64,000 nt of DNA from Treponema brennaborense (GTDB taxonomy: Bacteria; Spirochaetota; Spirochaetia; Treponematales; Treponemataceae). Under the pieces are notes generated by a model. It was not told the origin of the DNA. It saw only the letters and a list, made by a program, of their open reading frames with translations, and ran no database searches. The stretch's first letter is position 1; every line of letters starts with the position of its first letter. The stretch is taken from assembly GCA_023666275.1 (NCBI GenBank), contig JAMPCJ010000001.1, positions 310,001 through 374,000 of the forward strand. Direction: 5' to 3'. This document shows, in pieces, positions 4,872 to 48,707 of the stretch. The position numbers and the translations under genes are program-made.

Positions 4872-4921
4872 ACGCTTGATTGTATCATGTGCGGAGATTT
4901 TTGTCTGCACAGCCGCACGGT

Positions 4922-4948
4922 TTGACAAAAAGACACTGATTGTATAGT
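4922..4948 (+). promoter_or_regulatory. Promoter of def, predicted leaderless
   Basis: TTGACA at 4922-4927 and TATAGT at 4943-4948 are separated by 15 bases. The -10 ends only 8 bases before the def ATG at 4957 and there is no Shine-Dalgarno. Transcription should start at or next to the start codon. Confidence 0.6.
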
Positions 4949-4956
4949 GTAAATAA

Positions 4957-5529
4957 ATGGAAATTTTGTATTTGGGAAATGAACTTTTGCGGCAGAAATC
5001 AAAACCGCTGGCAAAAGAAGAAATAAACGACACATTGCGGAATACACTTAACGGCATGTTCGATCTGATGCTTGAAAAAGAAGGCGTCGGTTTGGCGGCG
5101 CCGCAAATCGGCATCCTGAAACGCTTTTTCGTCATCATTGCAGACGACAATGTGCGCCGCGTTTTTATCAATCCGCAAATCACCGCAACATCGGCGGAAA
5201 CGTGCGTATATGAAGAAGGCTGCCTGTCCATTCCCCGCCTGTACGAAAATATAACCCGTCCGGCAAAAATAACGGTTCAGGCAACGAACGAAAAAGGCAA
5301 ACCGTTCACGCTCGAAGCCGACGGGTACCTTGCCCGCATTATTCAGCACGAGTACGATCACCTCGACGGAATTTTGTATATAGACCGCGGAGACGAAGCG
5401 TTTAAACAAAAAGCTGCGGAAATCATGGCAAAACGCGAAGAGAAACAAAAACAGAAAGAAAAAATAAAAGCAGCGAAAGCCGCGAAAATCGCCGCGAAAC
5501 AAGCACAAAGGGAACTGAAAAACCGATGA
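4957..5529 (+). CDS. def: Peptide deformylase
   Basis: Removes the formyl group from the N-terminal methionine of new proteins. All three family motifs are present: GVGLAAPQIG (residues 43-52), EGCLSIP (87-93) and QHEYDH (130-135), giving the Cys and two His metal ligands and the catalytic Glu. The 190-residue protein carries a lysine/alanine-rich tail of about 35 residues beyond the catalytic core. The stop codon overlaps the fmt start (ATGA), so the deformylase and formyltransferase are translationally coupled. The promoter lies just before the ATG and no Shine-Dalgarno is visible. Confidence 0.95.
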   Translation: MEILYLGNELLRQKSKPLAKEEINDTLRNTLNGMFDLMLEKEGVGLAAPQIGILKRFFVIIADDNVRRVFINPQITATSAETCVYEEGCLSIPRLYENITRPAKITVQATNEKGKPFTLEADGYLARIIQHEYDHLDGILYIDRGDEAFKQKAAEIMAKREEKQKQKEKIKAAKAAKIAAKQAQRELKNR

Positions 5530-6584
5530 GAATTTTGTATGCCGGTTCGCCGGAAGCGGCGGCGGCGCCTCTGGATTTTCTGCTCACCGGCTTCCGAGAG
5601 GCGAATTCAAATCATGAAATAATCGGAGTTCTCACCAATCCGCCGTCGCCGCAGGGCAGGAGCAAAAAGCTGCTGCCGACGCCGGTAGCACAGACGGCAG
5701 CTTCATATAACGAAAAACTGAACATTGCCGAATCCGCCGCGCAGTCCGTCATAAAACCGCGTGCAGTCGCTGTGCTGACGCCGGAAAAACTTGACGCAAA
5801 TGCGCGGGAACAAGTTGCCCTGCTGAAACCGGATATTCTTGTGTGTTTTGCTTACGGCAAAATATTCGGTCCCAAATTTATGGCGTTGTTTCCGCGCGGA
5901 GGAATCAATCTGCATCCGTCTTTGCTGCCGAAATACCGCGGATGCGCACCGATTCCCGCAGCGATTCTCAATCAAGACAAAGAAACCGGAATCACTGTGC
6001 AGCGGATTGCCGAAGAAATGGACACCGGCGATATTTTAAGCTCGACCCGAATTCCGCTTGCCGGAACAGAAACGGCGGAATCTTTGCTGCATGAAGTTTC
6101 CCGAAAAAGCGGAAAAATTCTGCTGGATGTTCTCGACGCTATTGAAGACGGAACTGCTGTGTCCGTTCCGCAAAGCACGGAACAGGTTTCGTACTGCAGA
6201 ATGCTCAAAAAAGAAGACGGCTTTATAGATTGGAATCTTTCCGCGCAGGAAATAGACGCCCGCATCAGGGCATTTTATCCATGGCCGCTCGCATTCACGG
6301 CGGTAAACGGACAGCAGCTCCGCATTCACGCAGCCGCGGTTTACAAACCCGACTGCGCAGAAGATAATTCCCAAAACGGGTACAATGCGGCTTCGTGTTC
6401 CGGCGCGCCGCTGCCGGGAACTATCATCGGAACAGATAAAAAACACGGAATTTTAATTCAAACAGGATGCGGCATTCTTGCGGTGTCCGTTTTGCAATGG
6501 CAGACAAAAAAAGCCATGAACTGGAAAGATTTTTTAAACGGATCGCCGCAAATTATTTCCCGGCATTGTGAACAGAGGTATTGA
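5526..6584 (+). CDS. fmt: Methionyl-tRNA formyltransferase
   Basis: Formylates Met-tRNAfMet using 10-formyl-tetrahydrofolate. The 352 residues cover the N-terminal formyltransferase domain, with the folate/catalytic motif INLHPSLLPKYRGCAPI and the following QRIAEEMDTGDIL, and the C-terminal OB-like domain after DGFIDWNLSA. The N-terminus (MRILYAGSPEAAAAPL) matches the family start. It overlaps def by four bases and is followed after two bases by the PASTA gene, so def-fmt-PASTA form one operon. It is slightly longer than usual because of inserts around residues 25-75 and 270-300. Confidence 0.95.
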   Translation: MRILYAGSPEAAAAPLDFLLTGFREANSNHEIIGVLTNPPSPQGRSKKLLPTPVAQTAASYNEKLNIAESAAQSVIKPRAVAVLTPEKLDANAREQVALLKPDILVCFAYGKIFGPKFMALFPRGGINLHPSLLPKYRGCAPIPAAILNQDKETGITVQRIAEEMDTGDILSSTRIPLAGTETAESLLHEVSRKSGKILLDVLDAIEDGTAVSVPQSTEQVSYCRMLKKEDGFIDWNLSAQEIDARIRAFYPWPLAFTAVNGQQLRIHAAAVYKPDCAEDNSQNGYNAASCSGAPLPGTIIGTDKKHGILIQTGCGILAVSVLQWQTKKAMNWKDFLNGSPQIISRHCEQRY

Positions 6585-34835: not shown

Positions 34836-34870
34836 GTGTATCGATTTTGCGAAAAACAAAGGAGCGGAAT

Positions 34871-35503
34871 ATGAACGAGTTGATTTTATATCACGGGTCG
34901 AAAAACGGCATCAAAGGCGGCATCGCTCCCATAAGCCGCGACAAGTGCGATTTCGGAAAAGGCTTTTATATGGGAACGGAAAAACTCCAGCCGCTCACTT
35001 TGGTTTGCAGTTACGAGAACGCCGTCTTGTACACAGTGCATTTTTCTTTGGACGAATTGAAAGTTCTGGAAATTCCGCTCGGCATTGATTGGGCTTTGTT
35101 CGTCGCTTACAATCGCGGACTTTTGGATTCGGCAAAAAACTCAAATCTCTATAAAAAAATGAAAAGTTACGCAAAAGATTACGATGTCATAAAAGGATAC
35201 ATTGCGAACGACAGAATGTTCGTGGTGCTGGACAGATTTTTCGGCGGAACGATAACCGATGCCGCTCTTGTGGAATGTTTGAGCGCCTTAAAACTCGGCG
35301 AACAGTATGCCGCAATTACGCACAAGGCGTGCGGAAAAATCAAAATCGTTCAGACGGAAAAACTTGCAAAAGAATATAAAAACGAACTTTCCGAAAAAAG
35401 CGCGGAAAACAGGGAAAAAGGTATCTCACTGGCAGAAGAGATTTGCCGAAAGCACAGAAGAAACGGAATGTTTTTTGATGAAATTTTGGAGCATGCAAAA
35501 TGA
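34871..35503 (+). CDS. DUF3990 protein, putative ADP-ribosyltransferase-like toxin
   Basis: The 210-residue cytoplasmic protein begins MNELILYHGSKNGIKGG, and the GKGFYMGTEKLQPL segment follows. This H-G-S ... G-F-Y-M-G-T pattern is that of DUF3990, a family with an ART-like fold often found in two-gene toxin-antitoxin-like modules (family knowledge). The C-terminus is a charged helical region ending HRRNGMFFDEILEHAK. AAAGGAG lies before ATG 34871. Its end overlaps the next gene by four bases. Both genes sit between exact copies of the uvrB tail, so the pair looks mobile or recently inserted. The target is unknown. Confidence 0.7.
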   Translation: MNELILYHGSKNGIKGGIAPISRDKCDFGKGFYMGTEKLQPLTLVCSYENAVLYTVHFSLDELKVLEIPLGIDWALFVAYNRGLLDSAKNSNLYKKMKSYAKDYDVIKGYIANDRMFVVLDRFFGGTITDAALVECLSALKLGEQYAAITHKACGKIKIVQTEKLAKEYKNELSEKSAENREKGISLAEEICRKHRRNGMFFDEILEHAK

Positions 35504-35934
35504 ATTCCATAGAAAAACAACTCTGCGACATACAAGGCAGGCTTTTTGAACTTTCCGCTGTGCACGGCTTTGACTCCTGCGACTTCATTTGCAAATATAT
35601 GAATTCCGATGTTGCCTTTCATCTCGACTTGAAATTCGATTTTTTTCAATGGGCGGGTGAAGCGTATCTGCTCGACGAACTTTGCGATGAGTCACAAATA
35701 AAAAAAACGGAACACGTTTTTTCCAAAGAAACGCTTTACTGGACAGGCTATGTTTACAGATATTGGCACTATTACAAAAATATTTCCAGCAAAGAAATCC
35801 ACAAAATCGCCGACGCAAAAACGATGGCGAAAGTTTATTTGTCATATCACACGCTTGACGCGGAAATGGCAATAGACAGGCTTTGCGAAAGTGAAAAAAA
35901 CAAAGCGCCCGTATCGAAACAATTCGGCACGTGA
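35500..35934 (+). CDS. Putative partner/antitoxin of the DUF3990 protein (144 aa)
   Basis: The 144-residue acidic, soluble protein (MNSIEKQLCDIQGRLFELSA ... KFDFFQWAGEAYLLDEL ... YWTGYVYRYWHYY) is of a type that co-occurs with DUF3990 genes in my recollection; it has no named domain I can be sure of. The start overlaps the DUF3990 stop, which is typical of a toxin-antitoxin pair. The last five residues and the stop (KQFGT) are read from the duplicated uvrB tail in the same frame as in uvrB. The natural C-terminus of this protein has therefore probably been replaced at the insertion junction. Confidence 0.6.
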   Translation: MNSIEKQLCDIQGRLFELSAVHGFDSCDFICKYMNSDVAFHLDLKFDFFQWAGEAYLLDELCDESQIKKTEHVFSKETLYWTGYVYRYWHYYKNISSKEIHKIADAKTMAKVYLSYHTLDAEMAIDRLCESEKNKAPVSKQFGT

Positions 35935-35998: not shown

Positions 35999-36664
35999 TC
36001 AATTTTTTGAATTTGCTTTTCGGCGTTCACAAATTTTCAGCACAAAATGAGATGCAAGGCACACGGCAAAAATCATCAGCATCGAAAATACGATTTGCGT
36101 TTTGAAAGAATAGCGCAGGCTTGCGTCCGTGTAAAACAAAAAAAGGTTTGAAAAAATCTTGCTTTGCGAAAACGCGAAAACTCCCGCACCGAAAACAAAA
36201 ACCGAAGCAGCCACAAAAATCACACGCGGCATTTTCCGCTCAAAGCGGGAAAGCGCGGAATGCGCGTGCAGCGAAATGTGAAACGCCGCAATCATGAACA
36301 TCCAGCTCGAACATGACGCGTGAATGTTGCGCCATGCGAAATTCACCGGAAGAAAAGCGACGTTGAAAACAAGCCCCGAAATCATCAATGAACTTGCCGC
36401 CATCAAAAGCATCGCCGCGAACAAGGACGCGTTCGCTGCCGCAAGCACAATTCGCCGCACATTGTACGTGCCTTTGAAAAGCGATTTGAAATACGAAGCG
36501 TTCAGAAAATGGTGCAGCGCAAAAAGAACAAAAAGCACAATCCCCAAAACCGCGTGAAGCAAAAGCCCCGTGCCGTTCTGCCGATTGGCAAGGAATGCCA
36601 AAATCGCCGTCATAACAATGTCAGTCAACATCTTGGCGAGTTTTTTCGCCGCACCTTTTTTCAT
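35999..36664 (-). CDS. DUF4405 membrane protein (cytochrome b-like)
   Basis: The 221-residue inner-membrane protein has about five hydrophobic helices. Histidines sit in or next to membrane segments (LLHAVLGIVLFVLFALHHFL, NIHASCSSW, AFHISLHAHSAL), as in DUF4405/cytochrome b561-like proteins, where they could ligate b-type heme. AAGGAG lies 7 bases before the start. It is the third gene of a minus-strand set behind two exported flavodoxin proteins, with a 91-base gap. It could carry electrons across the membrane to or from them; this is inference from context. Confidence 0.7.
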   Translation of the reverse strand: MKKGAAKKLAKMLTDIVMTAILAFLANRQNGTGLLLHAVLGIVLFVLFALHHFLNASYFKSLFKGTYNVRRIVLAAANASLFAAMLLMAASSLMISGLVFNVAFLPVNFAWRNIHASCSSWMFMIAAFHISLHAHSALSRFERKMPRVIFVAASVFVFGAGVFAFSQSKIFSNLFLFYTDASLRYSFKTQIVFSMLMIFAVCLASHFVLKICERRKANSKN

Positions 36665-36755
36665 TCCGGCTCCTTATCACAATCGGACTGCCGCCGCATT
36701 GCGCTAACACCTGCGCCCGATACAGTCCGCTTCGATTCACAGTGCATCGCAGAAA

Positions 36756-38159
36756 TTATTTTCGGGGAATTCCGTTTTGCGAAAGCCATGCTTCGATTTC
36801 ATTCCTGTTGTGGCGCGAATATTCCCATTCATAGCCGATGCCGACATAACTTTGCAAAACTTTTTTCGAAAATGCCGAAACGCTGTCGCCGAATTTCGTT
36901 CCGCCGTGGCTTGAAAAGCTGACGATTGTTTTTCCGGCAAAATCATATTCTTCCAAAAACGAAACTACGGGCATCGGAAGCGTTCCCCACCAAGTCGGAT
37001 AACCGAGCAAAATCACATCGTACTGCGCCATATTTTTTACATGGGAAGCAAGCGGCGGTTTGTAGTATGCGCCCAAATCTTTTTGGCTTGCTTCGTAAAT
37101 GGCGCCGAAGTACGGACGCTGCATTTTGATTTCAAAGAAGTCGCCGCCGCACAGTTCCGCAATAAGTTTTGCGCCGCGCTCCGTGTTTCCCGAATACGAA
37201 AAATACGCCACAAGGATTTTCGGATTTTTCGGAACGGAAATATTCAAATCGTAAGTCGTAGTAAATTCGGCAGCAGCTCCATGCGGGTATGACGCATCCG
37301 CATTGCGGCAAATCCGAAAGCCCAAGTTTTCATCCGTATCAATCGGATTCGTTGCGCTCCTGTAGCACGAACGCAGATGCTTTCCGAAATCGTTGAAACT
37401 TCCGCCGCGGTTCACGCGCAGATGTCCGCTCGCGCTTCCCGCAGGATTTTCCGAATTGTTCACATCGTAAGGCGCGTAGAAGTCGAAACACCATTCCGCA
37501 ACATTTCCGTGCATATTGTAAATGCCGAATTTATTCGGCGAAAACGAATCCACCGCAAGCGTTCTGTGCAAGGCGCGTCCCGGCTTTACGCTTGGGTCGG
37601 TATGATGCACATAATTGTCTTCTATAGAATACGGATACGTTCCTTCGAAGTTTGCAAAATCGGAATGCACTTGATTTCCGAAACTGTAGCGCGTCGTGCT
37701 TCCCGCGCGGCAGGCATATTCCCATTCCGCTTCGGTCAAAAGCCGGTAGCCGTTTGCACTGCGGTTCCAAGTTACGCTCGCCTTGCCGCTTTTCGTGTCG
37801 CCCGAAATTTCGTATACGAGCGTAAGATTTCTTTGCGATGAAAGGCGGTTGCAGTATTCTATCACGTCGAACCACGTTACATTTTCCGCAGGCAGGTTCG
37901 CGCCTTTGAAATAACTCGGATTGCGTCCCATGATTTTTTCAAAATCCGACTGCTTCACTTCAAACGGATCGCAGTAAAACGAATTGACTTTTACGCTGTG
38001 CAGAACCTCATCGTCCTCGCGCCATTTTTCGTTCTGCGCACTTCCCATTGTGCAGCTGCCGGCGGGAATCAAGACAAATCCGTCATCGATTTTCGCAGAC
38101 TGCGCGGAAGCTGCCGCCGCCAAAATTGCCGATGTAATCATAAAAGCGATTTTCTTCAT
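36756..38159 (-). CDS. Exported fusion of FGE/SUMF1-like domain and flavodoxin
   Basis: The 467-residue protein has a signal peptide (MKKIAFMITSAILAAAASAQ). Residues 25 to about 285 form an FGE-sulfatase/SUMF1 domain (FVLIPAGSCTMGS, YRLLTEAEWEYACRAGSTTR, NMHGNVAEWCFDFY, RVNRGGSFNDFG, LGFRICR). A C-terminal flavodoxin domain (about 300-460) contains ILVAYFSYSGNTERGAKLI and VILLGYPTWWGTLP. The segment after RGGS, where true FGEs carry a catalytic Cys (GGSWLC pattern), reads FND, so formylglycine formation is unlikely. Export of an FMN-binding flavodoxin is unusual. The start at 38159 overlaps the upstream flavodoxin gene by four bases. Confidence 0.8.
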   Translation of the reverse strand: MKKIAFMITSAILAAAASAQSAKIDDGFVLIPAGSCTMGSAQNEKWREDDEVLHSVKVNSFYCDPFEVKQSDFEKIMGRNPSYFKGANLPAENVTWFDVIEYCNRLSSQRNLTLVYEISGDTKSGKASVTWNRSANGYRLLTEAEWEYACRAGSTTRYSFGNQVHSDFANFEGTYPYSIEDNYVHHTDPSVKPGRALHRTLAVDSFSPNKFGIYNMHGNVAEWCFDFYAPYDVNNSENPAGSASGHLRVNRGGSFNDFGKHLRSCYRSATNPIDTDENLGFRICRNADASYPHGAAAEFTTTYDLNISVPKNPKILVAYFSYSGNTERGAKLIAELCGGDFFEIKMQRPYFGAIYEASQKDLGAYYKPPLASHVKNMAQYDVILLGYPTWWGTLPMPVVSFLEEYDFAGKTIVSFSSHGGTKFGDSVSAFSKKVLQSYVGIGYEWEYSRHNRNEIEAWLSQNGIPRK

Positions 38160-38674
38160 TTCCAATCCTTTACCTGCGCTTCGCTCACGCTGCGGGTGAA
38201 GCGTTTTCCATTCTTCCAATCGCCTTTCGCTTTTCGCGCCAAATTCCTCGCGCTTCCGCCGATTCCGCTCGAACCTGAAGTGCAGAACGGATAGACTGTT
38301 TTTCCGCTGAAGTCCGCGCTTTCGACGAACGTGTACAAAATGTTCGGCGCTTCGCCCCACCAAATCGGATAGCCGATGTAAACCGTGTCGTAAGATGAAA
38401 TGTCGAGAACTTCCGCCATTTCCGGACGAACCGTCGCCAAATTGTGGCATTCTTTCGTCGTCCGCGAATTCGAATCGTGCCAATTCAAGTCGGCTTTCGT
38501 ATAGGGGACACGCGGCTTGATTTCCAAAATATCGCTTCCGGTGATTTTGGCAATCTGCTGCGCCGCGTTTCGCGTGTTCCCGAACTCCGCGGAAAAATAA
38601 ACCACCACGCTTTTCGCGCTCGCCGCCATGTTTACGGCAAAAACCGCCGCAATCGTCAAAAGAATTTTTTTCAT
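38156..38674 (-). CDS. Exported flavodoxin
   Basis: The 172-residue protein has a clear Sec signal peptide (MKKILLTIAAVFAVNMAASA). The flavodoxin fold is marked by VVVYFSAEFGNTRNAAQQIA (phosphate loop for FMN), YDTVYIGYPIWWGEAPN and TVYPFCTSGSSGIG. It is shaped like the flavodoxin_4 group. Ordinary flavodoxins are cytoplasmic; this one should work outside the inner membrane. AAGGAG is 9 bases before the start at 38674. It is the first gene of the operon with the FGE-flavodoxin fusion and probably the DUF4405 cytochrome. The distal end of the CRISPR array lies about 160 bases upstream. Confidence 0.85.
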   Translation of the reverse strand: MKKILLTIAAVFAVNMAASAKSVVVYFSAEFGNTRNAAQQIAKITGSDILEIKPRVPYTKADLNWHDSNSRTTKECHNLATVRPEMAEVLDISSYDTVYIGYPIWWGEAPNILYTFVESADFSGKTVYPFCTSGSSGIGGSARNLARKAKGDWKNGKRFTRSVSEAQVKDWK

Positions 38675-38835
38675 TTCAAAGCTCCTTGCAGTTTTGTAAA
38701 TCTTAGCGTGCACAGCCGATTATGTCTAATACTTTGTTTTCATGTCGTTTTATGCCTTTTAAGTATACAGCGCTGTGTGCAGGCTTGTTTTGCGGGAATT
38801 ATTTATCGTTTTCAGAAGAAAAATATTTTCGATAA

Positions 38836-39987
38836 ATCTACAACAGTAGAAATTTTGTATTTGTCTGAAACTTGAGACATACAAAGATGTTTTTGGTAAT
38901 CTACAACAGTAGAAATTTTGTATTTGTCTGAAACTCGATACCGGAACGGTTACGGCTCCGATCTACAACAGTAGAAATTTTGTATTTGTCTGAAACATTC
39001 AATCCAATTGTTCATTGGACAAAATCTACAACAGTAGAAATTTTGTATTTGTCTGAAACTGTATGTAAGTTTTCCGCCAAACTCATCTACAACAGTAGAA
39101 ATTTTGTATTTGTCTGAAACTATCACATTACGATCATGAATGTTTTTATCTACAACAGTAGAAATTTTGTATTTGTCTGAAACTTTTTACGCAAAGCAAA
39201 TGGAATATATCTACAACAGTAGAAATTTTGTATTTGTCTGAAACCTGTTCGCGCTAAATTATCTGTTTCTGATCTACAACAGTAGAAATTTTGTATTTGT
39301 CTGAAACATCGTGAATTATACTTTCCGATATATATCTACAACAGTAGAAATTTTGTATTTGTCTGAAACAAGGAAGGTGAAAATCATCATAAGAATCTAC
39401 AACAGTAGAAATTTTGTATTTGTCTGAAACCATCAAGGATATATCTCCACTTCATGTATCTACAACAGTAGAAATTTTGTATTTGTCTGAAACCCTTTGT
39501 CTTCGCCATACTCACCAACAAATCTACAACAGTAGAAATTTTGTATTTGTCTGAAACTTTCTTTGAACAGAATATGGGTCTTATCTACAACAGTAGAAAT
39601 TTTGTATTTGTCTGAAACCTATATGCGTTACGTGACGTTCATTCATCTACAACAGTAGAAATTTTGTATTTGTCTGAAACACTTTCAACAAGCTAAGAAA
39701 TTAATTATCTACAACAGTAGAAATTTTGTATTTGTCTGAAACCTTCCAGCAAGCTAGAAAACTTATTATCTACAACAGTAGAAATTTTGTATTTGTCTGA
39801 AACTTGGATTCGATATGAGATTAGCAGGATCTACAACAGTAGAAATTTTGTATTTGTCTGAAACTTAATTTGCTTATTGAGTACAGCCTATCTACAACAG
39901 TAGAAATTTTGTATTTGTCTGAAACCTCAGAATAAAGAGTTATTTGAACAGATCTACAACAGTAGAAATTTTGTATTTGTCTGAAAC
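38836..39987 (-). CRISPR. Type V-A CRISPR array, 19 repeats and 18 spacers
   Basis: There are nineteen identical 36-base repeats with 18 spacers of 25-28 bases. Repeats start at 38836, 38899, 38961, 39024, 39085, 39148, 39209, 39272, 39334, 39395, 39458, 39522, 39583, 39645, 39707, 39768, 39829, 39890 and 39952. Read on the minus strand each repeat begins GTTTCAGACAAATACAA and ends AATTTCTACTGTTGTAGAT, which is the Cas12a crRNA handle (CTAC-TGTT-GTAG hairpin). Transcription is therefore leftward and the leader is at the right end. No repeat is degenerate, including the leader-distal one. Spacers 14 (39681-39706) and 15 (39743-39767) are related to each other. Confidence 0.98.
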
Positions 39988-40106
39988 CCCTAACTTTTGT
40001 ACAACAGTACGGTATCTTGCTTTTTTTCGCATTTGCTGCATAAAAAGAAAGGCAAAATCGCTTCTTTTTTCATATTCATCACAGTAAGACCCAGAGTTTG
40101 CAGTTT
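39988..40106 (-). promoter_or_regulatory. CRISPR leader with a handle-like hairpin
   Basis: The 119-base region between cas2 and the first-transcribed repeat is rich in A/T runs and has no coding sequence. At 39999-40010, 11 bases from the repeat, it holds GTACAACAGTAC. On the minus strand this is GTAC-TGTT-GTAC, the same loop as the repeat's CTAC-TGTT-GTAG hairpin with changed stem pairs. No clear -35/-10 pair was found. Confidence 0.7.
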
Positions 40107-40382
40107 TCAGCCGACGATGAAAATTTCCTTTTCCTCATTTCTGGCATATCCATAGCATGTTTTTTTACATGTTTCGGACAAACTGATTATAATAATACTG
40201 TCCTCTTCTGTAAAGTGCTTCATATATGTATTTTGAATTTCTGTTTCAATATTCCGCAGGACGGTTTCGCTGTTGCGGATTTCAAAGACAGAATACTGCA
40301 GTCTGAATCCGAATTTTGAAAGATACTTTGCAAATTTCGTGCGAAGTTTGTCATCACTGATATCATACGTTATCAAAAGCAT
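40107..40382 (-). CDS. cas2: CRISPR-associated endonuclease Cas2
   Basis: The 91-residue ferredoxin-fold protein begins MLLITYDISDDKLRTKFAKY and contains FGFRLQYSVFEIRNSE, as in Cas2. It forms the structural core of the Cas1-Cas2 spacer-integration complex. The first beta-strand Asp (YDIS) is retained. GGGAG lies six bases before the start. A 16-bp hairpin sits just before this site, so cas2 expression may be separated from cas1 or attenuated. It is last in the cas set, 119 bases from the array. Confidence 0.95.
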   Translation of the reverse strand: MLLITYDISDDKLRTKFAKYLSKFGFRLQYSVFEIRNSETVLRNIETEIQNTYMKHFTEEDSIIIISLSETCKKTCYGYARNEEKEIFIVG

Positions 40383-40395
40383 AGTTTACTCCCAT

Positions 40396-40437
40396 AAAAA
40401 GTCAAGAAGAATGTTTGAACTTTCTTCTTGACTTTTT
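40396..40437 (-). terminator. 16-bp perfect hairpin immediately before cas2
   Basis: AAAAAGTCAAGAAGAA (40396-40411) and its exact reverse complement (40422-40437) enclose a 10-base loop. On the minus strand the stem ends in TTTTT, like an intrinsic terminator, about 14 bases before the cas2 ATG. Confidence 0.6.
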
Positions 40438-40439
40438 GC

Positions 40440-40459
40440 GCTGCTTCGCAAGAAGCAGC
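40440..40459. repeat. GNRA-loop hairpin in the cas1-cas2 gap
   Basis: GCTGCTTC - GCAA - GAAGCAGC, an 8-bp perfect stem. On the plus strand the loop is a GNRA-type tetraloop. Confidence 0.6.
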
Positions 40460-40469
40460 AGTTGATATG

Positions 40470-40490
40470 CAAGTTTCCAACGGAAACTTG
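40470..40490. repeat. Hairpin CAAGTTTCC/GGAAACTTG in the cas1-cas2 gap
   Basis: A 9-bp perfect stem with loop AAC. Its core AGTTTCCRACGGAAACT recurs in the hairpin at 53351-53371, in another hairpin cluster. Confidence 0.65.
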
Positions 40491-40493
40491 ACA

Positions 40494-40530
40494 TGATAAA
40501 AGTGCGCGCATTTGTGCGGCGCTTTTATCA
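40494..40530. repeat. Hairpin at the cas1 stop codon
   Basis: TGATAAAAG (40494-40502) pairs with CTTTTATCA (40522-40530), with GC-rich pairing inside. It overlaps the cas1 stop. Confidence 0.6.
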
Positions 40531-41499
40531 TACCTCCTCCATATCAAAAACAGGAAATTGTTTTGCAGACTTATCCCGCATAAAGGCACGATAATAGCTC
40601 TGCAAATAAATAAAGATTTCGTTTTTGTATTCCATAATTGCCTTCAAAATCAGTGAAATGTATTTCTGTGAATTTTTCCAGGGAAGAATATACTGTTTTT
40701 GATTTTTCCAAAAATCCTTTTCGCTCACTTGTCCGAGATTCATCGCCTTTAGTATTGCCGCATCAACAATCGGACGGAACGGCTCTTCGAGATCGCAGAC
40801 AAGCGACTTTCTGTGAAAAAACTGCGTATGCAGAATTCCTTTATATACATCAAATCCGTACATTTCCAAAAGCGCATTTACAATGCTGAACAAAATAGTG
40901 TAGCCGATATCGAGCAATGTGTTTGCAATATCGTTTTTTACACGCGGCTGGCGCGATTTCCAGTTATAGGCGGCAAACAATGTTTTAAAATACTGTTTTG
41001 CACTTATGCCTTCGATTCCCATTATTTCCTGAACTGACAAGCCGGGATTCAAAACGTCTTTTTCATAGCGTTCAAGGTCTGCAATCACACGTTTTTCATC
41101 ATCCGTTTTTTTCCGCATCTTTTTCAAAAGAAAGTTTTGATTGCGAATTTTGTTTGAAATCACCCAGGCAGCGATATCGTTTTTTTCGTATGCGTATTGT
41201 TTCTTTCGCAGAAGCACATTTCCTTCCGCTTTCGAAGGCAGAATCATTGTCACGCGCAGACCGGCAGTCATAAATACAATGGTGAAGCCGAATTTTTTGG
41301 AACGCTCAAGCAGCCCTGTTGTCAGGCAGTAGTCTCCGCACACAAACAAGGCGAAAAGCCGGTAGCAGGTGGACTGATGTTTTGTTTTTCCTTCCGAATC
41401 GGAAACAATGATGTTGTCGTTTTTAAAACTGATTTTTTCGCCGCGGTTCGAAAAAACAAAGGCAATTTGCTTGTGCTCAAAGTCCCTCGTGCTCATCAT
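40528..41499 (-). CDS. cas1: CRISPR-associated integrase Cas1
   Basis: The catalytic subunit of spacer acquisition. The 323-residue protein carries the metal-binding residues Glu163 (IMGIEGISAKQYF), His224 (GILHTQFFHRKS) and Glu239 (DLEEPFRP). This is the normal Cas1 set, so it should be active. It overlaps cas4 by four bases (ATGA), indicating coupled translation. Three bases later there is a second in-frame ATG (41496). Downstream, four consecutive hairpins separate it from cas2, which is unusual for a cas operon. Confidence 0.96.
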   Translation of the reverse strand: MMSTRDFEHKQIAFVFSNRGEKISFKNDNIIVSDSEGKTKHQSTCYRLFALFVCGDYCLTTGLLERSKKFGFTIVFMTAGLRVTMILPSKAEGNVLLRKKQYAYEKNDIAAWVISNKIRNQNFLLKKMRKKTDDEKRVIADLERYEKDVLNPGLSVQEIMGIEGISAKQYFKTLFAAYNWKSRQPRVKNDIANTLLDIGYTILFSIVNALLEMYGFDVYKGILHTQFFHRKSLVCDLEEPFRPIVDAAILKAMNLGQVSEKDFWKNQKQYILPWKNSQKYISLILKAIMEYKNEIFIYLQSYYRAFMRDKSAKQFPVFDMEEV

Positions 41500-42080
41500 A
41501 AAAAACCTCCGTTGTACTTTTTAGGAGACAGCGGCCGGTCGCAGAAATCGTTGTAAATGCAGTGTGCGCATTTTTCTTTGTTCTCAGGGGCAAACGAATT
41601 TAAGTCAAAGTTTTGCATGGCGTAATTTACGGCTTTGAACTTTTCAAGCATTGCCGGATCTTCTTCCGGCAGAGGAACGGGATAAACAATATTATTGTCA
41701 AAGGAATAAAATCGAAGCTGCTTCACCGTACAGCCCATCTCACGCAGACAGAAGCATTGCGCGTAAAGCTGAAAGATGTAGCCGTCATATATTTTTTCGA
41801 TGTGTTTTTTCCGCTCCGTCAAAAGATTTTTTTTCGTATCGAAAATGTCGATTTTTCCGCACAGTTTATACTCATCGGAATACACGTCGATTCCCTGCAA
41901 AATATTTTTGTGCGTTGAATATCTGTGTCCGTCAATTGCCTGGTGAGCTGCCTTTCCGTCAAGCTGCGCCTTTCCATAGTACAGATGCTCGGAAAGTTCG
42001 CCGTAGAGCTGATGATAATAAATCGAAAGCGGGCAAAATATAAAGTCGTTGAGATAACTGATTTTAAGATAAAGTTCCAT
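41496..42080 (-). CDS. cas4: CRISPR-associated exonuclease Cas4
   Basis: The 194-residue RecB-family nuclease processes and orients prespacers by PAM. Visible are Cys16 (DFIFCPLSIYY) and the C-terminal cysteines 171, 174 and 180 (KCAHCIYNDFCDRP) for a 4Fe-4S cluster, GKIDIFDTK for the metal-binding Asp, and DGYIFQLYAQ for the QhXXY-type motif. No Shine-Dalgarno precedes ATG 42080. It lies 39 bases after the YoeB-like gene, so it is probably transcribed from the toxin-antitoxin promoter and perhaps translated at low level. Confidence 0.95.
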   Translation of the reverse strand: MELYLKISYLNDFIFCPLSIYYHQLYGELSEHLYYGKAQLDGKAAHQAIDGHRYSTHKNILQGIDVYSDEYKLCGKIDIFDTKKNLLTERKKHIEKIYDGYIFQLYAQCFCLREMGCTVKQLRFYSFDNNIVYPVPLPEEDPAMLEKFKAVNYAMQNFDLNSFAPENKEKCAHCIYNDFCDRPLSPKKYNGGFL

Positions 42081-42119
42081 GGCTTAAATTTTATTGCATC
42101 TGTTTTGTCATAAATTGTC

Positions 42120-42380
42120 TTATCCATAATGCGTCCACATACGCAATACTTGGACGGTTCCTTCACTTTCGTAGACTTTATAAACAAGGCGATGCTGTAT
42201 CGTAATTCTGCGTGAATAAAAACCGAGCAAGTCGCCGACAAGTTTTTCGTAAGGCGGCGGATTTTGAAAAGGATTTGCGGAAAGAATTTCAAGCAATGCC
42301 GCGGCTTTGCCTTTTAGGCCGCATTCTTTTATTTTTTTTGAGTCCTTAACCGCTTGCTTTGAATAAACAATTTTCCACAT
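42120..42380 (-). CDS. YoeB/Txe-family toxin
   Basis: The 86-residue RelE-superfamily protein begins MWKIVYSKQAVKDSKKIKEC and contains PPPYEKLVGDLLGFYSRRI, RLVYKVYESEG and a C-terminal WTHYG. These match YoeB, a ribosome-dependent mRNA interferase, including the final His-Tyr. It directly follows its antitoxin with no gap. Its place inside a cas operon, between cas12a and cas4, is the striking point: loss of this DNA would release the toxin and could select for keeping the locus. That role is inferred. Confidence 0.9.
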   Translation of the reverse strand: MWKIVYSKQAVKDSKKIKECGLKGKAAALLEILSANPFQNPPPYEKLVGDLLGFYSRRITIQHRLVYKVYESEGTVQVLRMWTHYG

Positions 42381-42623
42381 TTACCAATCCAATTTGTTCG
42401 CACATTCGGATAAAGGTTCTTTTGCGCCTTCGATAATGCTTTCTTTCATTCCGGGAATAGAAGAAAGATAAAGTGTTTCCTGAATGGCATTCCAGTCCGA
42501 TTCCGAAACAAGAACCGCATTGTTCCTTTTTCCGGAAATTATAACCGGAGTATGAGAAGCATTTGTTTCATCAATCAGTTTGTAAAGATTTGCTCTCGCT
42601 GCACTTGCCGTTAATACAGACAT
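42381..42623 (-). CDS. YefM/Phd-family antitoxin
   Basis: The 80-residue protein (MSVLTASAARANLYKLIDET ... HTPVIISGKRNNAVLVSESD ... LYLSSIPGMKESIIEGAKEP) matches YefM: an N-terminal Phd-like DNA-binding domain and a C-terminal toxin-wrapping helix. It should neutralise the YoeB-like toxin and repress their promoter. AGGAGA lies before ATG 42623. Just upstream are two copies of CGTACGG within a promoter-like region, the likely operator. It follows a terminator-like hairpin that closes the cas12a unit. Confidence 0.9.
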   Translation of the reverse strand: MSVLTASAARANLYKLIDETNASHTPVIISGKRNNAVLVSESDWNAIQETLYLSSIPGMKESIIEGAKEPLSECANKLDW

Positions 42624-42643
42624 ATCCGTCTCCTATGTTACAG

Positions 42644-42679
42644 CGTACGGTATATCGTACGGAAAGTCAAGAAACAAAT
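42644..42679 (-). promoter_or_regulatory. Promoter/operator of the YefM-YoeB pair
   Basis: On the minus strand TTGACT is followed after 17 bases by TACGCT. An alternative is TTGTTT-17-TATACC. CGTACGG occurs at 42644-42650 and 42656-42662, 12 bases apart. Each contains the palindrome CGTACG, so a dimeric antitoxin could bind both sites over the promoter. Confidence 0.6.
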
Positions 42680-42712
42680 TATGCAATGATGGCTGCATAC
42701 ATCATTGCATAA
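42679..42712 (-). terminator. Hairpin terminator after cas12a
   Basis: TTATGCAATGATG (42679-42691) and its exact reverse complement (42700-42712) give a 13-bp stem with an 8-base loop. It starts 13 bases beyond the cas12a stop and is followed on the minus strand by TTTGTTT. Confidence 0.6.
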
Positions 42713-42725
42713 CACGACAGCAGAA

Positions 42726-45700
42726 TTATTTTAAATATTTTTTTTCCTGCACAAATTCAAACCAATCGGCATTGGAAATTTTCAAATCCGCTTTCTTGAG
42801 ATTAGCATCCTCTGTGTCAGAAAACCGTTGAAGCAACAGAAGCCCTTTCAGCGCGATGTGATACGCTCCGTTTGCGTCGGCATCGATCGGAAGTTTTGCT
42901 TTGCCGCCGAGTTCTTTTTCCTTGCGGCTGTCAAAGAAAGTGCCGTCCTTGTTTTTTACGGGCGAAATAATATAATCTTCGCCGGTTGAAGCATTGGAAT
43001 TTCTCATTTGCAAAATGAGTTTGAAATTTTTGAGCATTGCATCCCAAAAATCAGCGATGGGCTTGTCCGGTCTTTCGCCGTCTTTCAAATCCGCGCCTAT
43101 TTCCAAAATCGGATCGATTAAATTCCTGCCGTCTTCAAAATTTATGCCGCACTGACTGAAAATCTTTTTGAATTCATCGGTCGGATAAACATCTGAATAG
43201 GATTTTGACTTTGATGAATAAGCAATCCTTTTGTCGCAGGAATAAACGATCCATTTTGCGGCAGCCATTTCGGTTTTGCCTTTCCCGTCAAAATTTTTGT
43301 AATCGAACGTAAACGCAAAAGATTCGGTTTCTGCATCGTAGCGAATTTCATCGAATTTTGAAAAAAACTCGCGTTTTTTATGCACATTCGTCAAATCGCG
43401 CAAATTCAGCAAATCCACAAATCCTGTTTTTGGATCGATTTTTGATGTGTAGGCGGCGGGAACATAGAACAAAAATCCTGACTGCTTGCCAAGTTTCTGG
43501 AAGCTTTCAAATTTCCCCGCTAATTGATAGCCATTTAAGACTCCGCCCGCTTCGGAAAAACCTTTGTCCTTGAACACAAGATAATTCAGTTTGTCTATGA
43601 GCATTTTTTCAAATTTTTGATAAACCTGCTTTTCAACATGAAATCGTCCGCGCTTAAAGCCAAAATTCAAATCTTCCATGACGATAACGGCGTTATATTG
43701 AATCATCAGTTTTGCAAGCTCATGAATTACGGCAGAAAGATATCCTTCCTTTAATTCGGCGATTTTGCCGATTGCGTTCCAGTTTTTTCGGGCGGCATCA
43801 CGCTCTTTTTCGCGATTGTCAAGTTTTTCATGGTAGTTTACTTTTACCGACTGTCCGTTTTTGCTGCGTTCAACTTCATTAAACGAAAACTGTTTGAGTA
43901 TTTCGCCTTTTTGATTTATAAGCGACAAATAGATTAAGTGACGCTCGCCGCGGTCAAGTCCGATGACATTAACGTCGGGATTATTTTTTAAGAATTCCCT
44001 GACGCGTTCGTTCATTGTAAAAACGTTTCCCTGCGCTTTAAAGTTGATGGTGATTGGAACATGAAACAAAAACTTCGGTTCCGCAAATCGTCTGTCTTTT
44101 GTAATATCGTGCCGAGCCGTTTTTACAATTACCTTGTGTTCATCGGCATATTTTTGTGCATCTGCCGAAAGTGCTTTCTGGGTGCCGTTTTCGAATTTGT
44201 AGATTTCCTCGTAAATCTCTTGCGGAATAGAAAAACCGTCCTGCGTGATTTTGTTTACGAGTTTCGAGCCTTTTTTATGGACGATAGGCTCTTTTATTCC
44301 TTTTTCACGATAAAACAGCTCAGCCTCTCCGTTCAGTTTAAAAACAGTGTCTTGCAGATTTTCTTTGCTGAAAAGATTTTTCCAATAAAGCGTGTGCATG
44401 TTCGGCGTGCCGTTTGCGCCTTCGGCAAAATCTTTGTTGTAAATTTGGAAGAGGTAGAGTTTGCCTTCATCTACCAGTGAATTGATGTATGATTCCGGGA
44501 CATCAGTAAAAGTGATTTTATACCCCTGTTCTGAAATTTCCCTGTAAAAACAGCTTATGTCCTTGTATGACGCTGTGTCCGAAAATGTGAAACCGAAATT
44601 TTTCCAGTCAGGATGACGACCGATTGCATCCTTGAAAAAATCTATCAATGAACGGCAGAATTGTTTGTCGAATATATCGCCTTTTTTATGCAAGCCTTTG
44701 TCATAGCCGCTTAAGATTTCTTCGGGCGGACAAAAATCGGCTTTTCCTTTTTTCGAAAAGAATACTTTCGGAAGCATTTTGTTCGGTCCGGGAAGCAGTT
44801 TGTAAACCATTTTTTGATAGCACTTTTCACCGTTCGATTCGTATTTTTCTTGAAATTTGGGCTTGTCGTGCGCATTCATTATTCCCAGAAAATATTTCTC
44901 GTCTTTTATCAAAATGATTGCACCATTTTCTCGCTCTTTATTTTCATCCCAGCCGTCAGCAAGTGTCGGACAATCAAAATTCAACTTGAATTTTTCCGGT
45001 GCATTTGCTTTTTTCGCAATGTAGTTTCTTGTTTTATTGTAAAGAGAAATTACTTCACTGAGCGCAAAATACACTTCGTCATAAATCGTGTAAAAATTCG
45101 CATCTCCCAAACCGCTTGCCTTTAAAGGCTTGATGCGATGCAGAAGGTTTTGCACCGAATCCAAATAACTCTTGATTTTTTCAACATCGGCAGGTTTTTC
45201 ACGCAGTGTCTTTTCAGACGGAACAGTTTCAAAAACAGTATGCATTGCGACAAAATTAGTTTCTATTTCCGTGCACAAATCTTTTATTGACGGCTCAATG
45301 ATTTCTTCGCTTTTTGTAAAAATTTCTGTTTGCTTGTCGAAATAATAGCGGTTTGTCGTTCCAAAATAATCTTGTATGCGAATTGTTGTAGGCGAGCAGT
45401 TTTCAGAACAATATTCCAAAACGGCATTAAGTTCTTCAAAACTGAAAATTCCTTTTGTTTTGGAAGTGTCGTCATCAAGCTCTTTTTTCCAGCGTTTCTG
45501 TTCTTTTTTGTTTAAAGTTTCTTCTGCAAAGATGTTCATGCGTTTTTGCAAATACGCCCAGTCGCCTGTCAAAATTCGTGAAACAGTGTTTATGTCTTTT
45601 TGATTTATATAAATTTTTGACAAATCAAACTGTATGATATTTTCGCAAAGTTCTGTTACGACAGTGAAAACTGTTTTCCCTTCATTGTTTTTTGAATTCA

Positions 45701-46697
45701 TTTTTTCCGCAAATGACAAAAGCGACTCTTTTAATTCTTCATCGGAATCAATTGTCTGGATTTTAAATGACAATGACGTGCGGTCGCTCAAAATTTGCTT
45801 GTACAATGGAATGAATTTTATTTTTCGATTTGTCTTTGCAAAATCGGCATTTTGCTGCCAGTAAAGGTTTAAAAATTCGTTTATTCCGCGGAGTTTTTTG
45901 TCGTTTTCGGTTTGAACGATTCCACCGATTACTTGATTGTAAAAATCAATTCCGCGTTGTTTTTCCGCTCCTGTCTGGCACAAATAGTTGTTGTAATTTT
46001 GTACATTAAAAATATCAGACAATTTTTTATTTCCGAGGTAGACAGAAAGTTCTGTTTCCACTTGCTCGATGACTTCGGGGCATTTTTTCTGCATTTCGTT
46101 GAAGGAATTGACATTCTGCAAAAATTTCGGAAAGTTGTCATGAACAATTCTATACGGCACCGCCGTGGGAATCTCCTCTTCCTTATACATGTTTTTTCTG
46201 TTTTCCTGAAAGCCTTTAAAATAAGAGCTGAATTTCCTGAAGGTCTCGACAGCTTTTTCATTCAACATAAGGGATGCGTTTTTTTCAAACCATTCAGGCA
46301 AAAGGGAATTGAACAAATCTTTTGGAGTGGACGCAGTAAGCGGATTAAACCGTTCGTCCTTTTTAATATATTTTACAATCTCTTTTCTAAGCGCATCCTG
46401 TTCCTTTTTGACATAAGAATCGTCTTCTTTTGTTTTGCTGTATTCAATTAAAGCGTCGGCAAGTTTTGTCCAGTCCAAATTCACATTTTGAAGGACATCA
46501 TCGATAAAGTATTTATGATAATTGTCTATGATGACCTTAACATCTTTGTAATCTTGAGACTTTTTAAAGTCGCTTTCAAGCAATTTCGCTTTTTCGATGT
46601 TCTCAAGCGTCGCGGCCTGCGGCTTCAATTCAAAACGCAATGTCTTTGAAATTGAATACCCGTTCTCCTGTCCGCAGAATTGTTCCGAAATTTTCAT
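42726..46697 (-). CDS. cas12a: CRISPR effector nuclease Cas12a (Cpf1)
   Basis: The single-protein effector of type V-A. It processes its own pre-crRNA, recognises a T-rich PAM and cuts DNA. The 1323-residue protein starts MKISEQFCGQENGYSISKTL, with GGAGGAA before ATG 46697. Seen in order: REC lobe; WED/PI with KMVYKLLPGPNKMLPKVFF; the crRNA-processing region around HDITKDRRF and FHVPITINFK; RuvC-I with Asp915 (GLDRGERH); bridge helix; RuvC-II with Glu1008 (VMEDLNFGFKRGRF); Nuc with LILQMRNSNASTGEDY; RuvC-III with Asp1274 (DADANGAYHIALKGL). All catalytic residues are intact. The gene is visibly more A/T-rich than flanking housekeeping genes, consistent with transfer. Confidence 0.98.
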   Translation of the reverse strand: MKISEQFCGQENGYSISKTLRFELKPQAATLENIEKAKLLESDFKKSQDYKDVKVIIDNYHKYFIDDVLQNVNLDWTKLADALIEYSKTKEDDSYVKKEQDALRKEIVKYIKKDERFNPLTASTPKDLFNSLLPEWFEKNASLMLNEKAVETFRKFSSYFKGFQENRKNMYKEEEIPTAVPYRIVHDNFPKFLQNVNSFNEMQKKCPEVIEQVETELSVYLGNKKLSDIFNVQNYNNYLCQTGAEKQRGIDFYNQVIGGIVQTENDKKLRGINEFLNLYWQQNADFAKTNRKIKFIPLYKQILSDRTSLSFKIQTIDSDEELKESLLSFAEKMNSKNNEGKTVFTVVTELCENIIQFDLSKIYINQKDINTVSRILTGDWAYLQKRMNIFAEETLNKKEQKRWKKELDDDTSKTKGIFSFEELNAVLEYCSENCSPTTIRIQDYFGTTNRYYFDKQTEIFTKSEEIIEPSIKDLCTEIETNFVAMHTVFETVPSEKTLREKPADVEKIKSYLDSVQNLLHRIKPLKASGLGDANFYTIYDEVYFALSEVISLYNKTRNYIAKKANAPEKFKLNFDCPTLADGWDENKERENGAIILIKDEKYFLGIMNAHDKPKFQEKYESNGEKCYQKMVYKLLPGPNKMLPKVFFSKKGKADFCPPEEILSGYDKGLHKKGDIFDKQFCRSLIDFFKDAIGRHPDWKNFGFTFSDTASYKDISCFYREISEQGYKITFTDVPESYINSLVDEGKLYLFQIYNKDFAEGANGTPNMHTLYWKNLFSKENLQDTVFKLNGEAELFYREKGIKEPIVHKKGSKLVNKITQDGFSIPQEIYEEIYKFENGTQKALSADAQKYADEHKVIVKTARHDITKDRRFAEPKFLFHVPITINFKAQGNVFTMNERVREFLKNNPDVNVIGLDRGERHLIYLSLINQKGEILKQFSFNEVERSKNGQSVKVNYHEKLDNREKERDAARKNWNAIGKIAELKEGYLSAVIHELAKLMIQYNAVIVMEDLNFGFKRGRFHVEKQVYQKFEKMLIDKLNYLVFKDKGFSEAGGVLNGYQLAGKFESFQKLGKQSGFLFYVPAAYTSKIDPKTGFVDLLNLRDLTNVHKKREFFSKFDEIRYDAETESFAFTFDYKNFDGKGKTEMAAAKWIVYSCDKRIAYSSKSKSYSDVYPTDEFKKIFSQCGINFEDGRNLIDPILEIGADLKDGERPDKPIADFWDAMLKNFKLILQMRNSNASTGEDYIISPVKNKDGTFFDSRKEKELGGKAKLPIDADANGAYHIALKGLLLLQRFSDTEDANLKKADLKISNADWFEFVQEKKYLK

Positions 46698-46729
46698 AAA
46701 AATTCCTCCATTTTTTCCAAACTTCTCTC

Positions 46730-47734
46730 TCACGCTTTATCTGTTTCGTATTTCTTCGCCATTGCCTCGCATTCCGCTTTGATTTTTTCGCGGAGTTCGG
46801 GCGGTTTTATTACGACGGCGCTGTTTCCGAATCCCATGAGCCAAGAAAATATCATCTGTTTTTGATTTGACTCGAATTTCAAAAGAACAGAGCCGTCTTC
46901 GTAAATTTCGGTTTGCTGATCCTTGTGCCATTCGTGTTCAAGAATGTAATTGCTTGTTTGCGGCGAAAACAGAATTTCATATTCCGCAACTTGCTGCGGA
47001 TTGTTCCAAATACCGAAATCTATATCTATGTGATTTTCTATGTCGAATTCGTTCGGAATAGTAAAGGTTTCGGCTTTGAAAGCAATATTTTTGATTCGTG
47101 CAAGCGCATACACGCGGATTTCCTTTGTACCGTGGTCAAATCCGATTGCGTACCAGTTTCCTTTTTGGCATAAAACGCGGTATGCATCAAAAATTTTTTC
47201 ATTATATGTTTTGCTCTTGTTGCTTTTGTATTCAAACGAAATGACGGTGCGGCTTCGAATTGCCTTAAAAATCGAATTGAAACAATTCTCGTCGATTTTC
47301 GCCAGCGGGTCGGAAATAAAACAGACATCTCTGTTCAAAAACGCAGAATCGACAACAACATTTTCGGGCAAAAAAGACGCGAGTTTCTTCATTATATTCT
47401 TGAACGACGGCTCAAGGGGCGTGTTTTTATACTGCTCGATAAGCTGCGTCATCACGGAAACAGTAAAAAGCTCTCCCTCGGTAAGGACGACATTCGGAAC
47501 AGAAAATGTCGAATCGGTATAGTGATACGCTTTTCGTATTCGGTCGTACTCAAGCGGGGCGTTCATTTCGTCACGAAGATATGCAAAAGTACGCTCAATG
47601 GTGCGCCGGCTCACTCCGAATTCAAAAAGCAAATTCTCCATCTTAACGAACGCGCCGCCCCGCAGTTTTTTATCAATCTGAATCAAGCGGATATGTTCTC
47701 TGATACTGTCGCGTTTTTTTATGCCGTTATCCAT
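46730..47734 (-). CDS. HTH-WYL transcriptional regulator next to cas12a
   Basis: The 334-residue protein has an N-terminal winged helix (RLIQIDKKLRGGAFVKMENL, FGVSRRTIERTFAYLRDEM). A WYL domain at about residues 165-240 contains ISFEYKSNKSKTYNEKIFDA, GNWYAIGFDHGTKEIRVYAL and the following RIKNI. A WCX-like C-terminus follows. WYL proteins are known regulators of several CRISPR-Cas loci and bind nucleic-acid-like ligands. The stop is 32 bases before cas12a, so both are likely co-transcribed. The start 47734 has TATAGT 6 bases upstream and no Shine-Dalgarno. It probably controls cas12a and itself. Confidence 0.85.
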   Translation of the reverse strand: MDNGIKKRDSIREHIRLIQIDKKLRGGAFVKMENLLFEFGVSRRTIERTFAYLRDEMNAPLEYDRIRKAYHYTDSTFSVPNVVLTEGELFTVSVMTQLIEQYKNTPLEPSFKNIMKKLASFLPENVVVDSAFLNRDVCFISDPLAKIDENCFNSIFKAIRSRTVISFEYKSNKSKTYNEKIFDAYRVLCQKGNWYAIGFDHGTKEIRVYALARIKNIAFKAETFTIPNEFDIENHIDIDFGIWNNPQQVAEYEILFSPQTSNYILEHEWHKDQQTEIYEDGSVLLKFESNQKQMIFSWLMGFGNSAVVIKPPELREKIKAECEAMAKKYETDKA

Positions 47735-47740
47735 ACTGTA

Positions 47741-47749
47741 ACTATACCA
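47741..47749 (-). promoter_or_regulatory. Extended -10 of the WYL regulator, predicted leaderless
   Basis: TGGTATAGT on the minus strand (47749-47741), ending 6 bases before the ATG. A candidate -35, TTCCAA, lies 18 bases further upstream. Confidence 0.5.
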
Positions 47750-47774
47750 TGAAAAGCCGTGCCGTTGGAAAATA

Positions 47775-48707
47775 TCACACTTCGATTTCCACCGCAATTT
47801 CCTGTTCCGAAAGCTGAACAAGTCTTGCGGGAAATGCCATCACTTCGGGTTTTGCCGCACGAATTATTTGTGCTGCCGCCGCACGAATATACCCCGCTTT
47901 CTCATGAATGGAATTTCCCGCCAATTTTGCATCAATATTTTCAATCATCACAGTGACGGCATTTTTATCGGCCGGATTGTACGGCTCGGCTTGAACTGCG
48001 ACGGAAAGATTCGCATAAGAGCTCCGCTTCGCTTTATATATATTTTTGAACTGATTTTCAAAAGCATCCGGCGTTATATTGCGAAAAAGATTTTCCAAAA
48101 CTTCGGAATACGGCGACCAGTGATAATAATTTGTTCCCACGACAGGAAGAGAAATGATGCGCTTCTTCTCCTTGAAATAGCGGACAAACGCCTGCTCCAG
48201 CGTTTCCTTTGCCGGATTAAAACCGAGCGATTTTTTTGCCTCGTCAAATATAAGCGGAACATCTTCCTCGGAAACGGCGCGGAACTGTCCGTACACAAGA
48301 CAGAACAGGATTTCCGCAGCAAGCGGCCGCATGATGAATTGGGCAAGCCTTGCACATTTTGCAAACGAATTCCGCCGCCGCCAGTACAGCTTTCCGGCAA
48401 GGAATGCGTTTTTTGCTTCCGCCGCACACAGCAATGCACCTGCGTGGAGCAAAAACTCATACGAATCTTTGTCCGAAATATCGGTTTTCGGAGAAACAAA
48501 AAGCACCGGCGAACAATTCATTTCGTCCTGTATATAAAGGTACTGTCCCAAAGAAAAATATGCACTTGATTCGATTTTTTGATAACCTTCAACATTCACA
48601 GCCTCGCCGTCAGCGACTTTTCCCGCATAGTCAAGCTGTCCTGTCCGGCTTTTTGAAAATTCAAACCAATTTTTTCCGCACTTAATCAGAATCTGTTTAC
48701 TGTCCAT
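47775..48707 (-). CDS. HIRAN-domain protein upstream of the WYL regulator
   Basis: The 310-residue soluble protein is mostly of unknown family. The C-terminal 95 residues look like a HIRAN domain (LSVAVQAEPYNPADKNAVTV then AGYIRAAAAQIIR), which binds DNA ends, often 3' ends, in repair or restart proteins. The N-terminal 200 residues have a helical region rich in Ala/Phe/Cys without enzymatic motifs. GGAGG lies 7 bases before ATG 48707. It is 40 bases upstream of the WYL gene on the same strand. It may belong to the CRISPR locus, possibly handling DNA ends, or be an independent defence gene; this is inference. Confidence 0.6.
   Translation of the reverse strand: MDSKQILIKCGKNWFEFSKSRTGQLDYAGKVADGEAVNVEGYQKIESSAYFSLGQYLYIQDEMNCSPVLFVSPKTDISDKDSYEFLLHAGALLCAAEAKNAFLAGKLYWRRRNSFAKCARLAQFIMRPLAAEILFCLVYGQFRAVSEEDVPLIFDEAKKSLGFNPAKETLEQAFVRYFKEKKRIISLPVVGTNYYHWSPYSEVLENLFRNITPDAFENQFKNIYKAKRSSYANLSVAVQAEPYNPADKNAVTVMIENIDAKLAGNSIHEKAGYIRAAAAQIIRAAKPEVMAFPARLVQLSEQEIAVEIEV

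Follow-up and report, generated by a model that had tools for sequence, protein, structure and literature searches.

Electron transfer by DUF4405 membrane proteins and exported flavodoxins has already been proposed: Huang et al. (2024; PMC11334425) described apbE gene clusters that contain DUF4405 together with flavinylated, exported Flavodoxin_4 proteins. DUF4405 proteins had been predicted in 2015 to be cytochrome b561-like, within the cytochrome b family (PMC5898192), and heme b was demonstrated by Huang et al. in one DUF4405 protein, a different member from the one considered here. The same authors found signs of flavinylation in exported flavodoxins and none in cytosolic ones, and viewed this modification as a guard against the loss of FMN (PMC11334425). 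The core idea, a DUF4405 protein serving an exported flavodoxin, is thus known. An earlier note on the present locus, which lies in a 64,000-nucleotide stretch of Treponema brennaborense DNA (the window), proposed an extracytoplasmic FMN-type electron-transfer set that was not a standard described pathway; the first half of this proposal is supported by export signals and by co-occurrence with DUF4405, and the second half gives way to the publications just cited. Like the system of Huang et al., the window operon pairs an exported Flavodoxin_4 protein with a DUF4405 cytochrome whose heme histidines are conserved. In contrast to that system, its flavodoxins lack the flavinylation insertion, apbE lies outside the cluster, and a second flavodoxin and a formylglycine-generating enzyme (FGE)-like domain have been added. 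Three features, namely the FGE partner, unflavinylated flavodoxins and a triple fusion described below, mark a variant of the known system; we found no description of this variant, or of the FGE–flavodoxin pair, in open-access full texts, and an earlier survey (PMC8238504) makes no mention of FGE, formylglycine, Treponema or DUF4405. We consider it probable, at roughly two chances in three, that the operon encodes a DUF4405 cytochrome b relay to exported flavodoxins that hold FMN non-covalently, together with a binding module derived from FGE.

The three genes are co-oriented on the minus strand. P0001 (38156-38674; 172 aa) is a Flavodoxin_4 protein (PF12682, residues 22-171, 6e-46 in Pfam), P0002 (36756-38159; 467 aa) joins an FGE-sulfatase domain (PF03781, residues 27-284, 5e-41) to a second PF12682 domain (residues 314-439, 2.5e-24), and P0003 (35999-36664; 221 aa) is a six-helix membrane protein of the DUF4405 family (PF14358). 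The stop of P0001 and the start of P0002 overlap by four bases (ATGA, 38156-38159, minus strand), and P0003 starts 91 bases past the P0002 stop. Sec-type signal sequences, MKKILLTIAAVFAVNMAASAKS and MKKIAFMITSAILAAAASAQS, stand at the N-termini of the two flavodoxin proteins; these were called by eye, and those of relatives by a simple hydrophobicity rule rather than by SignalP. The earlier description of two Sec-exported flavodoxin domains with a 4-base gene overlap, the second of them joined to an FGE-type domain, is therefore borne out by Pfam, the signal sequences and the coordinates. The genome, 97.7% complete at 2.35 Mb in 18 contigs, contains five Flavodoxin_4 domains, one DUF4405 and a single apbE, which sits on a different contig (C1:39560-40405), outside the operon cluster.

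On one side, a stretch at 34847-35934 faces the operon; it comprises a DUF3990 gene and, after it, a frame at 35500-35934 that has no Pfam match, the two overlapping by 4 bases. Also adjoining the operon is a type V-A CRISPR-Cas system (38833-46733), which comprises an array of 19 repeats (38833-40012), a cas2-like frame assigned by position only (40107-40382), cas1 (40528-41499), cas4 (41496-42080) and cas12a (42726-46733), with a WYL-domain protein after cas12a (46730-47821). Two adjoining spacers of the array (39643-39765), ACTTTCAACAAGCTAAGAAATTAAT and CTTCCAGCAAGCTAGAAAACTTATT, resemble each other, as might be expected if both targeted one gene shared by related elements.

A search over 294 genomes of the order found DUF4405 in 78, and loci were scored with profiles built here, the 67 loci with a clear DUF4405 forming the base of the counts given next. 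A same-strand Flavodoxin_4 gene lies within 2.5 kb of DUF4405 in 53 of the 67 (79%); about 1% would be expected by chance, as estimated from the five Flavodoxin_4 copies in a 2.35-Mb genome, so co-location is far above chance and the gene set is not accidental. FGE genes are near DUF4405 in 18 of these loci and FGE–flavodoxin fusions in 13, and the window's order of small flavodoxin, fusion and DUF4405 is repeated in loci L081, L092, L102, L105 and L115 under the same 2.5-kb limit. In some genomes, for example G003, the fusion is found apart from DUF4405. By the hydrophobicity rule, export signals are present in 12 of the 13 fusions (the thirteenth sequence is incomplete), in 41 of the 52 separate flavodoxins near DUF4405, where several of the signal-less ones are broken off at contig ends or are extra copies, and in all six separate FGE genes. 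The earlier note had named orthologs without signal peptides, and a DUF4405 gene never beside flavodoxins, as observations that would speak against its proposal; the relatives have instead kept both the signals and the neighbourhood. To judge from this linkage, the operon is real and conserved.

P0003 reaches 26.7 bits in Pfam, exactly the curated cut-off, and 30.2 bits in the genome search. Its histidines H37, H51, H115, H129 and H133 are nearly invariant, each recurring in 66-70 of the roughly 70 DUF4405 proteins aligned, in agreement with the heme-ligand-like residues reported by the earlier note. The pairs H37/H51 and H115/H129 are each 14 residues apart, the distance known from di-heme cytochromes b, making P0003 a putative member of that class. 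Its AlphaFold model is weak (pLDDT 67.4, from five alignment rows) and the fold matches are non-specific, being four-helix bundles with FdnI (1kqf_C) among them. With regard to menaquinone as a candidate electron donor, MqnA and MqnD are absent from the genome itself, MenD has no match at the cut-off, and one UbiA-family protein is present.

The solved structures nearest to P0001 are 3klb, an FMN complex, 4j8p and 4ici, and the flavodoxin domain of P0002 likewise matches FMN-bound 3klb and its relatives. The FMN sites appear intact in alignment to 3klb, while both proteins lack, between strand 1 and helix 1, the insertion that carries the flavinylation motif D-x-x-S-G/S-A-S/T; the best reading is that both domains hold FMN non-covalently. 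The flavodoxins that partner FGE, whether fused or separate, form one subclade (support 97/92) adjoining the flavinylated ones, and P0001 belongs to a different clade, common to most DUF4405-bearing genomes. The flavinylated form described by Huang et al. is also found in this spirochaete order (L041, L045, L046, L047 and L130). Within the order the motif is rare: among the 52 separate flavodoxins whose neighbour is a clear DUF4405, only 4 have it, and a fifth motif-bearing flavodoxin, that of L130, adjoins a weaker DUF4405. Two further exported flavodoxins beside DUF4405 (L068, 5078-5746; L079, 5101-5721) have an insertion with DVNSGSS, possibly a degenerate flavinylation site. Contrary to the published expectation, then, most exported flavodoxins that adjoin DUF4405 in this order lack a flavinylation site, which raises the question of how FMN is retained outside the cytoplasm.

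The FGE-like domain of P0002 shares the fold of FGE/SUMF1 (PF03781) and differs from it in the loss of both catalytic cysteines, in a private insertion and in its fusion to a flavodoxin. Past RGGS it reads FNDFGKHLRSC (RGGSFNDFGKHLRSC), and the cysteine pair that corresponds to human C336/C341 was not found. The earlier note was right about the missing cysteine, yet bacterial FGE-like proteins usually lack it: none of the 75 FGE-like domains compared has both cysteines together, so their loss is ordinary for the family. All 28 flavodoxin-linked FGE domains, fused or adjoining, fall on one side of a branch with support 100/96, and none of 47 stand-alone domains, which come from the same searches and represent the nearest outgroup rather than a census, falls inside that clade. 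An insertion with IExNY, which in P0002 lies in the YPYSIEDNYVHHTDPSVKPGRALHRT region (37544-37635, minus strand; about residues 175-200), is present in 27 of the 28 linked domains and in none of the 47 stand-alone ones; the tree was computed with the insertion columns included. The clade-private residues are I179, E180, Y183, N256 and D257, the last two just past RGGS, at the position of FGE's active-site loop. In the AlphaFold model of P0002 (pLDDT 78.9, pTM 0.82) a low-confidence stretch spans much of the insertion, and the top Foldseek matches of the FGE-like part are Treponema denticola TvpA (2y3c), the nearest solved structure, PvdO (5hha) and FGE. On its fold and conservation, the domain is a putative binding or docking module.

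When the fusion alignment was scanned against 84,980 species genomes, the matches listed included fusions in Bacillota metagenome-assembled genomes (MAGs), at 58% identity in L133 and 44-45% in L134-L136. Binning errors in the MAGs are possible, but L133 also encodes a flavodoxin whose match to a choline-binding-like repeat, though weak (26.7 bits against a cut-off of 27), fits a Gram-positive. In L134, a Lachnospiraceae MAG, one frame of 746 residues (4119-6359) contains DUF4405, an extra transmembrane helix, FGE and flavodoxin, and Pfam recovers all three domains. In L141, DUF4405 is fused to the start of FGE and a frame change breaks the reading frame further on. As read from sequence, the loops that face the N-terminal side of the six-helix DUF4405 are positive, and by the positive-inside rule the extra helix after it would place the FGE–flavodoxin part of the L134 protein outside the membrane. 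The link to FGE, which the earlier note had no means of seeing, is the stronger part of the finding: across the sequences compared it is conserved and clade-specific, and in this case FGE is fused directly to DUF4405. L136 also encodes a cyclophilin-like domain fused to Flavodoxin_4 (4537-5592), with a flavinylation-like DAIASAS. Over 19 loci, the pairwise distances among FGE, flavodoxin and DUF4405 correlate at r 0.914, 0.939 and 0.875, to which common genome ancestry contributes, and none of 5000 permutations gave a correlation as high. L133 is nearest to the window in all three parts, and likewise to L033; because these cross-phylum nearest neighbours agree in every part, they suggest that the module moves as one.

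The sequences show the parts with their export signals, the conserved histidines and the absence of a flavinylation site, as well as a linkage that has been kept among relatives, the fusion of all three domains and their inheritance together; the relay that we favour would connect the parts as follows. The six-helix, di-heme P0003 would take electrons from a donor in the membrane or on its cytoplasmic side and pass them across the membrane through its hemes. Non-covalent FMN in P0001 and in the C-terminal flavodoxin domain of P0002 would receive them, and the non-catalytic FGE/C-type-lectin-like domain would either hold whatever substrate or partner is reduced by the flavodoxin or dock the flavodoxin to DUF4405. 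Counted against this relay are the position of P0003 at the Pfam cut-off and its weak model, the unflavinylated state of the flavodoxins, and the occasional separation of the fusion from DUF4405.

The genomic company of relatives' DUF4405 loci includes aldo/keto reductases (20), cyclophilin-like proteins (19), DUF362 (17), ABM monooxygenases (14) and cupins (11). A similar gene run, known from annotation only, is found on a Klebsiella plasmid (NZ_CP141562.1, L245; 1978-11667), where exported flavodoxins, DUF4405 and FGE occur in the order flavodoxin-DUF4405-cupin-CMD-flavodoxin-FGE-aldo/keto reductases, with an adjoining two-component system. Unlike that of the window, the Klebsiella FGE is unfused, and the flavodoxin that adjoins its DUF4405 has a flavinylation-like DGFSGAS. 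On a Microvirga plasmid the flavodoxin and FGE genes overlap by four bases. The FGE of neither plasmid has the private insertion, and the pairing of FGE with an exported flavodoxin may for that reason have arisen more than once. A strict rule that a cluster has either FGE or flavinylation, and never both, was rejected, since L136 and the Klebsiella plasmid each have both in one cluster.

Small-molecule redox genes in these neighbourhoods, namely the aldo/keto reductases, ABM monooxygenases and cupins, are among the evidence for a different role of the FGE-like domain, as a redox enzyme comparable with PvdO, EgtB and FGE, whose fused flavodoxin would supply electrons for the conversion of a small molecule or a protein that has been exported. 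The fold relatives do include oxidative enzymes (PvdO, FGE and EgtB-type matches), the fusion sets an electron carrier next to the domain, N256-D257 occupies the place of the FGE active site, and I179, E180 and Y183 are private to the clade. However, the catalytic cysteine pair is absent, no metal-binding triad was seen in the domain, and the PvdO model NF051459 (NCBIfam) scores 70.5 bits against a cut-off of 500; enzymatic activity of this kind therefore appears unlikely.

In the periplasm of T. pallidum and T. denticola, ApbE-like Ftp proteins cleave FAD to FMN (PMC4767422). The ApbE of the present genome is a Treponema-type ApbE/Ftp (nearest structures 7esa and 4xdt/4ifu), so free periplasmic FMN may be at hand, and this enzyme could supply it for non-covalent loading. 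Such FAD-splitting activity in treponemes, together with a non-covalent FMN site, would also suit flavodoxins that mainly carry or scavenge FMN, in flavin trafficking outside any electron chain, but the strong link to the heme-type DUF4405 and the direct fusion with it make this highly improbable. That the domain is a TvpA-like surface ligand binder diversified by a retroelement, its flavodoxin link being incidental, is hardly credible, since despite TvpA being the closest solved fold, the RGGS region is conserved within the clade rather than hypervariable, the FGE and flavodoxin trees agree, and the genome, having no reverse transcriptase (PF00078) match, lacks the retroelement.

DUF4405 and exported flavodoxins are widespread, and in the relay favoured here the conserved FGE-like partner offers a concrete starting point for approaching the substrate. 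The genes that neighbour relatives' loci suggest that the operon may serve in the response to reactive small molecules such as quinones, aldehydes and oxidants. More tentatively, and with the balance of our judgement against it, the FGE-derived pseudoenzyme might replace covalent flavinylation, keeping flavodoxin and FMN at DUF4405 and presenting a specific substrate, in a unit that moves between Spirochaetota and Bacillota. If this is true, then systems with FGE in place of flavinylation would form a class of their own within extracytoplasmic electron transfer.
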